Shown: in pieces, positions 27,437-29,561 of the stretch
How the letters are laid out: each line of letters starts with the position of its first letter
How positions within the stretch are numbered: position 1 is the stretch's first letter
From: an uncultured Alistipes sp.
Lineage (GTDB): Bacteria; Bacteroidota; Bacteroidia; Bacteroidales; Rikenellaceae
Assembly: GCA_944321955.1 (NCBI GenBank)
Contig: CALUNG010000010.1
Coordinates: 17,362 to 81,361, forward strand
Length of the DNA: 64,000 bases
Direction: 5' to 3'
Made by a program: the position numbers and the translations under genes
The notes under the pieces: model-generated
Seen by the model: only the letters and a program-made list of their open reading frames with translations
The model's database searches: none
Told to the model about the DNA's origin: nothing

Positions 27437-28687
27437 TCAGAGTCCGAACTCCTTCCTGAGCATGTCGACGGCATCGAGTTTCTCCCATCCGAAGAACTCG
27501 ATTTCGCGCTCTACCTCCTTGCCGTCGCGGAACAACTTTACCGTCTTGGTGTACGGGCGGTTGCCGAAGTGCCCGTACGAAGCCGTAGCTTCGAATATCG
27601 GGTTCTTCAGGCCGAACTCGCGAACGATGCTTGCAGGACGCAGGTCGAACAGACGCCCTATGCGCTCGGCTATCTCGCCGTCGCTGACGTTCGTATGATT
27701 CGTTCCGTAGGTGTTGACGTAGATCGAGAGCGGTTCGGCTATGCCGATGGCATATGATACCTGAACCAGAATCTCGTCGGCTATGCCTGCCGCCACCATG
27801 TTCTTGGCTATGTGGCGTGCGGCGTAAGCCGCCGAACGGTCGACCTTCGACGAATCCTTGCCCGAGAAGGCGCCTCCGCCGTGTGCACCGCGACCGCCAT
27901 AGGTGTCGACGATGATCTTGCGGCCCGTAAGGCCCGTATCGCCGTGAGGACCTCCGATTACGAACTTGCCCGTCGGATTGACGTGAAGTATGTAGTCATC
28001 GCCTATGAGGTCGGCCAGATGGTCGTTGGCACGCTCCAGACGTGCCTTTACGCGCGGTATGAGTATCGTGCGCACATCTTCCTTGATGCGCGCTGCATCC
28101 ACGCAGTCGTCATGCTGCGTAGATACGACGATGGTGTGCACGCGCAACGGTTTGCGTGTGGCGCTGTCGTATTCGATCGTCACCTGACTCTTGGCGTCGG
28201 GACGAAGATACGGCATCAGTTTGCCGTCACGGCGTATGTCCGCAAGCTCCTTGAGGATGACATGCGACAGGATGAGCGTTGCGGGCATCAACTCGCGTGT
28301 CTCGTTGCATGCATATCCGAACATTATACCCTGATCGCCTGCTCCCTGCTGCTCCTCTTCGGCACGTACGACGCCGCGGTTGATGTCGGGCGACTGCTCG
28401 TGAATGGCCGAGAGTATGCCGCAAGATGCGGCGTCGAACTGATATTCGCTGCGGTTGTAGCCTATGCGGTTGATGACGCGCCGTGCTACATCCTGTACGT
28501 CGACATATGCCTCCGAACGCACCTCGCCGGCAACTACTACCAGTCCGGTGGTGCAGAGCGTTTCGCACGCAACCTTCGATTCGGGGTCGCGGCGCAGGAA
28601 TTCATCGAGAATTGCATCGGATATCTGATCCGAAACCTTGTCGGGGTGACCTTCGGACACCGATTCCGACGTGAATAAAAATCCCAT
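27437..28687 (-). CDS. metK: S-adenosylmethionine synthetase
   Basis: The product is 416 residues from [25 protein letters not shown]; the ATG at 28687 is chosen because the family starts there, though the frame runs 30 bp further upstream. The enzyme joins methionine and ATP to make SAM. Family motifs include GHPDKV at the N-terminus, [16 protein letters not shown] (ATP site, GAGDQG hexapeptide) and the glycine-rich [27 protein letters not shown] near the middle. The 5' leader holds a SAM-II-type riboswitch, which would let the enzyme's product shut down its own synthesis. Confidence 0.96.
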
Positions 28688-28752
28688 AGTACAAACATTT
28701 AATTTGTTAAACATCAATGTAAAATGGGGTAGGATTGGCTGCTGTAATAAAA

Positions 28753-28810
28753 AGATGCTGTTTTAGCGATTTTTTATTGTGGTTGCAATCAGTCAAATCT
28801 TTCCACATTT
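28753..28810 (-). ncRNA. SAM-II-type riboswitch (SAM_alpha) in the metK leader
   Basis: Read on the minus strand, the leader has P1 strands TGTGG (28806-28802) and CCACA (28781-28777). Between them lie GATTTGAC and ATTGCAA, then AATAAAAAA, then GCTAAAACAGC (28766-28756). These are the conserved single-stranded blocks of SAM-II RNAs (GAUUUAAC, AUUGCAA, AUAAA, GCUAAAA) in the same order and spacing. The loop CTG can pair with the 3' CAG to form the pseudoknot, replacing the CC/GG pair of the crystallised alphaproteobacterial RNA, that is, compensatory change. The predicted transcript starts about 15 nt before it. Placement before metK fits SAM sensing. Confidence 0.8.
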
Positions 28811-28831
28811 CTTCTCCCTCGAAAGGGTCTG

Positions 28832-28863
28832 CAAAGATATCGCCGTATGATGAAATATCCAAA
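28832..28863 (-). promoter_or_regulatory. Promoter of the metK leader
   Basis: On the minus strand TTTG (28863-28860), a 20-bp spacer, TATCTTTG (28839-28832): exact consensus. Predicted start near 28825, just ahead of the riboswitch. It overlaps the region before the divergent ung gene. Confidence 0.85.
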
Positions 28864-28898
28864 TATTTTGATAATTTTACACAAAATTTATCGCCCGT

Positions 28899-29561
28899 AT
28901 GCAGGTCAAGATAGCAGAAGACTGGAAGCAGATACTCGCTCCCGAATTCGACAAGCCTTATTTCGAACAACTTACCGGGTTTGTGCGCGAGGAGTATGCT
29001 ACCCGTCGCATATATCCGCGCGGTTCGAACATTTTCCGTGCTTTCGACAAGTGTCCCTTCGAACGGCTCAAGGTCGTTATCATCGGTCAGGATCCGTATC
29101 ACGGGCCCGGTCAGGCCAACGGGCTGTGCTTTTCGGTGGGCGACGGTGTACCTTTCCCGCCTTCGCTACAGAATATCTTCAAGGAGGTGCATGACGATAC
29201 CGGTGCACCGATACCCGTTTCGGGCAATCTCGACCGCTGGGCCGAGCAGGGAGTGCTGTTGCTCAATTCGGTGCTTACGGTGCGTGAACACGAGGCGGCC
29301 TCGCACGCGAACCACGGCTGGGAGACCTTTACCGATGCCGTAGTCAAGGCCATAGCCGAGCGCAAGGAGGGTATAGTTTACATGTTGTGGGGCAGTTACG
29401 CCCAGCGCAAGGGAGCCATTGCCGATCCTTCGCGTAATCTTATCCTGAAGGCCGTGCACCCTTCTCCTCTGTCGGTTTACCGTGGATTCTTCGGCTGCCA
29501 CCATTTTTCAAAGGCCAACGAATATCTGCGATCCATAGGCAAGACTCCGATAGAATGGTAG
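28899..29561 (+). CDS. ung: Uracil-DNA glycosylase, family 1
   Basis: The product is 220 residues. It removes uracil from DNA to start base-excision repair. The catalytic water-activating motif GQDPYHGPGQA is at residues 63-73 (Asp65), the uracil-binding LLNSVLTVR block follows, and the DNA-intercalating loop HPSPLSVYRGFFGCHHFSKAN is near the C-terminus. All family 1 motifs are intact and the length is usual. The gene is divergent from metK, with the two leaders overlapping in about 210 bp. No clear promoter of its own was found: the region after TTTG at 28867-28870 lacks a good -7 box. Confidence 0.96.
   Translation: MQVKIAEDWKQILAPEFDKPYFEQLTGFVREEYATRRIYPRGSNIFRAFDKCPFERLKVVIIGQDPYHGPGQANGLCFSVGDGVPFPPSLQNIFKEVHDDTGAPIPVSGNLDRWAEQGVLLLNSVLTVREHEAASHANHGWETFTDAVVKAIAERKEGIVYMLWGSYAQRKGAIADPSRNLILKAVHPSPLSVYRGFFGCHHFSKANEYLRSIGKTPIEW

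Follow-up and report, generated by a model that had tools for sequence, protein, structure and literature searches.

A SAM-II leader in Alistipes that probably turns metK off by hiding its start codon

The metK locus and its SAM-II leader

The window, the whole 64,000-nt stretch of DNA that was analyzed, carries on its minus strand an open reading frame from ATG 28687 that is identified as metK by its match to TIGR01034 (522.9 bits, cut-off 309.4). The closest MetK among 80 named loci, at 87%, belongs to an Alistipes metagenome genome, which points to Rikenellaceae as the probable origin of the window. A SAM-II aptamer and a promoter lie upstream of metK, and ung is divergent from the metK promoter region (Table 1). 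SAM-II RNAs are sensors of S-adenosylmethionine, the compound that MetK makes.

Table 1. Features of the metK leader region, in window coordinates
Feature	Position	Strand	Remarks
metK, S-adenosylmethionine synthetase, 416 aa	27437..28687	minus	ATG start, then GGA
Start-codon hairpin (predicted)	28683..28728	minus	CCCAU 28728-28724 with AUGGG 28687-28683
Extension of start-codon hairpin	28720-28718 with 28693-28691	minus	ACA with UGU, in MFE folds
Switching element CAGCAGCCAAUCCUACCCCAU	28724..28744	minus	Putative anti-aptamer strand; 3' end CCCAU 28728-28724 is the putative anti-start strand
UUUUUAUU	28746..28753	minus	Pairable with the aptamer AAUAAAAA strand in the ligand-free fold (predicted leader folds)
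SAM-II (long loop) aptamer	28753..28812	minus	RF01726, 74.4 bits, cut-off 44
P1 UGUGG/CCACA; core GAUUUGACUGAUUGCAACC; A-rich strand	within 28753..28812	minus	Parts of the aptamer
GCUAAA	28767-28762	minus	Followed by ACAG 28761-28758, which contains the P2 3' strand CAG
Short hairpin CCCUUUCGAGGG	28816..28827	minus	Predicted fold, near transcript 5' end
Bacteroidota-type promoter TTTG-N20-TATCTTTG	28832..28863	minus	TTTG 28863-28860, TATCTTTG 28839-28832
ung, uracil-DNA glycosylase	28899-29561	plus	Divergent from the metK promoter region

The only gathering-level match found by cmscan across the window is to RF01726, SAM-II (long loop), upstream of metK (E 1.5e-12), and it covers model positions 1-60 of 60 without truncation. 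Its alignment contains GAUUUGAC, AUUGCAA, AAUAAA and GCUAAAA together with a 5-bp P1, which bears out the original prediction that the SAM-II blocks stand in order before metK. Of the two covariance models which that prediction had in view, the long-loop model recognizes the aptamer, whereas the alphaproteobacterial SAM_alpha model (RF00521) gives only 22.0 bits, under its gathering cut-off of 36, indicating that long-loop RF01726 is the correct family. A covarying pseudoknot had also been proposed. The P2 pairing CUG:CAG is indeed possible in the window and, with UUG:CAA, is the commonest state among relatives; however, covariation is weak, as the own match is hardly above permutation (142/2000, for 115 distinct loop/3'-strand combinations). 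The window aptamer is an ordinary full-length RF01726 member that likely binds SAM in place; this aptamer is already known, and the novelty lies in the expression platform.

The promoter had been described as exact and is, with minus-strand TTTG, 20 nt and TATCTTTG. A -7 box of the form TAnnTTTG occurs at most 80 nt from P1 in 87 of the 88 Rikenellaceae loci that have 100 nt upstream, relative to 4 in a control with one shuffle per locus. Outside Rikenellaceae, this box is found upstream of the aptamer in 110/128 loci versus 11 shuffled, and it is accompanied by a TTG at the -33 distance in 45 Rikenellaceae loci and 49 others. Right after the -7 box, a GC-rich hairpin is predicted in the window and in L032, L033, L036, L037, L041 and L042. 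Such a 5' hairpin is also predicted in L045, L049, L058, L059 and L100, with a sequence that differs between relatives, and is absent in L069, L081, L084 and L091, among 16 Rikenellaceae loci inspected. Judging from these predicted folds, a GC-rich hairpin near the 5' end may protect the message.

RF01726 exceeds its cut-off in 126 of 150 genomes drawn from Rikenellaceae and in 195 of 295 drawn from Bacteroidales, in searches with strict filters that lose weak matches. Our leader collection comprises 219 loci with RF01726 matches, 90 of them from Rikenellaceae. An aptamer pattern fits 216 of the 219 (L117, L119 and L177 do not fit and were excluded), and 214 of the 216 precede metK (212 with ATG, 2 with GTG); L041 and L118 have no metK start within reach and were excluded, as were duplicates and leaders with gaps beyond the range of each script. 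Between GCUAAA and the start codon there are mostly 58-85 nt. Of the 80 named loci, 59 have a pattern aptamer followed by a gap of 45 nt or more, and 46 of these are new; 18 have no pattern aptamer, and 3 are of a fused form that is described below.

Several individual loci in these sets deserve mention in their own right. The SAM-II RNA at 423-497 of L258, from a Tidjanibacter genome, is a variant whose P1 and A-rich strand are separated by an additional hairpin; the aptamer pattern does not catch it, yet it scores 43.3 bits with RF01726, slightly under the cut-off. Second RF01726 matches away from metK are present in L118 (52.7 bits), L117 (45.2 bits) and L119 (46.3 bits); that of L118 precedes a 300-aa ORF, and that of L117 an ORF resembling UDP-glucose dehydrogenase, as identified from sequence reading alone. 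Finally, L160 (1-2059; the same locus as L332) has the only terminator-like hairpin in 211 leaders, GCUCCU...AGGAGC-UUUUUUU, and also a short ORF starting at GCUAAAAUG.

A conserved element with two predicted partners

The gaps of Rikenellaceae leaders share an element soon 3' of the aptamer, with CAGCCAAUUUUUCCCAUUUUAUAC as its genus-typical form, that is complementary to two different parts of the leader. The first partner is the 5' half of the aptamer, where GUGGAAAGAUUUGACUG matches CAGCCAAUUUUUCCCAU, and the second is the metK start, where the 3' part of the element matches it as CCCAUUUUAUAC with GUAU..AAAAUGGG. Three or more bases of the element are used by both the best anti-aptamer and the best start duplex in 75/85 Rikenellaceae leaders and in 79/124 other leaders, indicating that the two pairings are mutually exclusive. 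The best start duplex takes in the complete start codon, with none of its three bases unpaired, in 64/85 and 56/124 leaders, respectively. The element also follows departures from the usual start. Specifically, L094 and L105, the two GUG leaders, both start GUGGG and have CCCGC where their relatives have CCCAU or CCCGU, and five of the eight AUGGC leaders (L084, L087, L110, L113, L114) have CCAUACGU or CCAUACGUU opposite GUAUGG. Long inserts in the hairpin loop of L032, L046, L056, L059, L062 and L074 leave both arms retained.

Compared with dinucleotide shuffles, the start helix has a mean Z of -2.19 in Rikenellaceae and -0.68 in the rest of Bacteroidales, with corresponding values of -1.78 (n=76) and -1.79 (n=117) for the anti-aptamer helix. 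Swapping elements among 85 distinct Rikenellaceae leaders changed the start helix from -12.90 kcal/mol with the own element to -10.04 kcal/mol (z -12.2, 0/5000), and the own element was better in 78 of the 85; the same swap in the rest of Bacteroidales (n=124) gave z -6.8 (0/5000). For the anti-aptamer helix, swapping gave z -10.7 over all leaders (n=191, 0/2000) and z -9.9 in the rest (n=115, 0/2000), with a modest effect in Rikenellaceae (n=76, z -2.7, 8/2000), where the aptamer core is nearly invariant. Controls with reversed elements, which preserve composition, gave z -3.0 (Rikenellaceae, 14/5000) and -1.8 (rest) for the start helix, and -1.8 and -2.2 for the anti-aptamer helix. Since these controls also fall below zero, composition explains some of the signal. 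After thinning to less than 70% identity, z was still -4.4 for the Rikenellaceae start helix (n=13, 0/5000; control -0.9) and -4.6 for the anti-aptamer helix among the other leaders (n=25, 0/5000; control +1.2). The thinned start helix of the other leaders (n=25) was weaker (z -2.7, control -1.6), and the thinned anti-aptamer helix in Rikenellaceae (n=13) was not significant (z -1.4, 465/5000).

Alignments of the 59 short Rikenellaceae leaders gave a mixed picture. One, made with MAFFT, has 40 hand-picked rows, and the other has all 59. In the 59-row alignment 84.4% of start-helix cells are paired versus at most 61.1% when slid, and three of five covariation measures lie beyond all 500 shuffles. 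The other two are within the shuffles, namely double-change pairs (2 versus 2.2, 403/500) and further types (111/500). Double changes are also more numerous in two slid versions than in the start helix itself. The hand-picked 40 rows gave 0/500 on all five measures, relative to which the 59-row result is weaker. For the anti-aptamer helix in the 59-row alignment, 85.5% of cells are paired versus at most 66.3% when slid, and covariation is beyond shuffles in part (3, 203, 25, 12 and 23 of 500). RNAalifold on the 40 rows returned no helix besides P1, which is largely invariant there, and for this reason weight was placed on the duplex tests, which are free of register.

Start pairing is tied to the presence of the aptamer. 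Among 24 aptamer-less metK leaders, just one has start pairing that reaches p 0.05. (This set derives from 30 loci by removal of three without a start, of L220, which has aptamer core matches upstream, and of L247 and L249, which repeat L241 and L244.) A G at +4 is present in 85/85 aptamer-bearing Rikenellaceae leaders as opposed to 1/6 aptamer-less genomes, counting the first metK copy of each. Within genus g199, metK starts AUGGG in the loci that have the aptamer (L031, L038, L039, L055, L061, L109) and AUGAGU in those that do not (L221, L222), as might be expected were codon 2 of MetK retained for the RNA.

Outside Rikenellaceae the pairing with the start is less clear. There, AUGUC leaders have no start pairing (n=16), and the upstream flank of AUGGG leaders is without covariation (z -0.3). 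Many leaders there contain a 5-nt complement of AUGGG regardless of the start (13/18 AUGUC and 16/16 AUGAA leaders), and thus CCC-type elements outside Rikenellaceae may serve the anti-aptamer helix alone.

Start-codon access and competing explanations

Access to the start was gauged as the predicted energetic cost of unpairing positions -4 to +5, with the aptamer-removed leader as a proxy for the SAM-bound state. In Rikenellaceae (n=75) this cost is 9.41 kcal/mol with the aptamer removed, 4.24 kcal/mol for the free leader and 8.64 kcal/mol with the aptamer shuffled. Aptamer removal raises it by more than 1 kcal/mol over the free leader in 70/75 leaders and has the opposite effect in one. The rest of Bacteroidales (n=117) gave 5.15 versus 2.98 (over 1 kcal/mol in 76, opposite in 1), and 46 further non-identical leaders from the named genomes gave 5.16 versus 3.10 (31, opposite in 2). 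The start is therefore costlier to open without the aptamer, indicating that the ligand-bound form is the closed one, as feedback on metK demands.

The window's own copy follows this pattern in part. Its start duplex is -14.5 kcal/mol (p 0.023 against 1000 shuffled spacers), and its anti-aptamer duplex, at -10.0, is no better than chance against shuffled spacers (p 0.37). Opening its start is predicted to cost 7.65 in the whole leader as opposed to 10.35 once the aptamer is taken away, and the cost rises in 59 of 60 leaders with a shuffled aptamer. The whole leader in its lowest-energy fold has the start hairpin closed even without SAM (-24.3 versus -17.9 with the start held free), and the predicted fold of a transcript that ends 30 nt before the AUG is the anti-aptamer form. 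Because the hairpin is kept in the lowest-energy SAM-free fold, a switch at equilibrium would be mostly off and a kinetic route would be needed, so that the window copy would be a kinetic, co-transcriptional switch.

We regard it as probable that metK is shut off when this SAM-II riboswitch hides the start codon, with neither a Shine-Dalgarno site nor an intrinsic terminator. The sequence statistics that point this way are the aptamer itself, the conserved element, its complementarity to two partners in Rikenellaceae and the link between start pairing and aptamer presence. Without SAM, the downstream element would pair with the 5' half of the aptamer in an anti-aptamer helix, and the A-rich strand with a U-rich stretch, leaving the AUG region open and metK translated. 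With SAM, the aptamer would fold first during transcription and retain its own 5' half; the released element, by its CCCAU end and flank, would then pair with AUGGG and the preceding bases and block initiation. We infer both this order of folding and that hiding of the AUG is the cause of lowered MetK.

Five loci have a more compact arrangement that bears on what is controlled. In L215, L264, L268 and L289 (RF01726 59.0-63.5 bits), and in L331, which was found by pattern, the metK AUG lies 0-7 nt after GCUAAA, and the start codon is at or beside the position of the pseudoknot 3' strand. A search of 393 Bacteroidales genomes with a pattern for this fused form gave three matches, which are L331, the genome of L215 and one non-metK case. 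L160/L332 was rejected as a fused locus, as the AUG beside its GCUAAA opens a short other frame and not metK. Neither a terminator nor a Shine-Dalgarno site would fit before the AUG of the fused loci, which favors the accessibility of the start codon as the point of control.

The fused loci also weigh on the two alternatives that survive best. In one, aptamer folding would free a pyrimidine-rich strand (UUUUUCCC, CCAAUCC) for Rho or a nuclease, so that expression would fall by Rho-dependent termination or mRNA decay with start pairing as a secondary matter. The element is in fact pyrimidine-rich, and much of Bacteroidales has weak start pairing despite a strong anti-aptamer helix. However, the element and the start codon co-vary in Rikenellaceae, start pairing is lacking in all but one of the 24 aptamer-less metK leaders, and the fused loci leave almost no leader between aptamer and AUG. 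We consider this explanation unlikely. In the other, the SAM-bound aptamer or a compact fold would itself bar the ribosome or bS1 from the A/U-rich leader, and the complementarities would be by-products of conserved sequence. This would suit the fused loci, in which a separate element would not fit ahead of the AUG, but it agrees poorly with a usual gap of 58-85 nt that holds a conserved element and with swap tests that go beyond their reversed controls, and we accord it a low probability.

An intrinsic terminator that attenuates transcription, the mechanism inferred for numerous proteobacterial SAM-II RNAs, is the commonest published prediction for SAM-II in alpha- and betaproteobacteria in the available text of PMC2258182. 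It is very improbable here and was rejected, given that no terminator-like site occurs in 28600-29000 of the window, with counts of 0/84 in Rikenellaceae leaders and 1/127 in other leaders. Sequestration of a Shine-Dalgarno site in the pseudoknot strand, in the style of the Sargasso Sea metX RNA and proposed for one SAM-II RNA in the accessible portions of PMC6061858 and PMC9373788, has next to nothing to recommend it and was likewise rejected, since there is no such site by the P2 3' strand and no SD-like site or even a GG in the 74-nt spacer, with SD-like sites in just 1/85 Rikenellaceae and 2/124 other leaders. The original prediction of a SAM-II-type aptamer and a Bacteroidota-type promoter before a metK lacking a Shine-Dalgarno site stands in all three parts.

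Returning to start-codon hiding, a broader reading is that start-codon access is what SAM-II controls throughout the order Bacteroidales, either in a long form, where a single element would pick the aptamer core or the AUG, or in the fused form with the AUG 0-7 nt past GCUAAA, and that the second codon of MetK (GGN) would be kept for the RNA. This extension is tentative, and we judge it somewhat more apt to fail than to hold. If it is true, an amino acid in a protein may be constrained by the RNA switch that controls its gene.

Relation to known riboswitch platforms

Bacteroidota messages are without Shine-Dalgarno sites, and so the textbook riboswitch route to a translation block is unavailable to them. 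A switch acting by concealment of the start codon would fill this gap and would explain how a riboswitch can act without a ribosome-docking sequence. Such a role would have some reach, as a large fraction of the searched Bacteroidales genomes has the RF01726 switch ahead of metK.

SAM-II RNAs in the Bacteroides group were already in print in 2005 (PMC1273637), and RF01726, SAM-II with long loops, was described in 2010 with Bacteroidetes and marine listed in Table 1 (PMC2864571). The window aptamer does not differ from that family, which it matches over the full model at 74.4 bits. The accessible portions of PMC2864571 describe no expression platform for RF01726, and searches of the open-licence PMC library yielded no start-codon platform for Bacteroidota SAM-II RNAs. 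As far as that library shows, start-codon hiding without a Shine-Dalgarno site would be a new platform.

Among characterized relatives in the accessible text of these sources, Agrobacterium tumefaciens metA also has a SAM-II RNA, and putative terminators follow P2 in many representatives (PMC1273637). Sinorhizobium meliloti metA is likewise under translational control with a start codon distant from the aptamer; however, a Shine-Dalgarno site in the riboswitch is needed and a terminator is present there (PMC9373788), neither of which was found at the window metK. The closest parallel in logic is the Sargasso Sea metX SAM-II RNA, which has the same aptamer class, the same OFF logic and translation initiation as its target (PMC6061858, PMC9373788). 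The difference is that metX has its Shine-Dalgarno site caught in or beside the pseudoknot, whereas in the window a separate element ~17-37 nt past GCUAAA would hide the AUG. The Bacteroides TPP riboswitches (Costliow et al., cited in PMC7366714) are likewise said to control transcription or translation in Bacteroidota that lack Shine-Dalgarno sites, with a ligand and an aptamer that differ from those of metK SAM-II. Finally, in Flavobacterium, a member of the same phylum, structure in the start-codon region is reported to tune initiation (PMC6847099), which makes a start-hiding mechanism at metK plausible.
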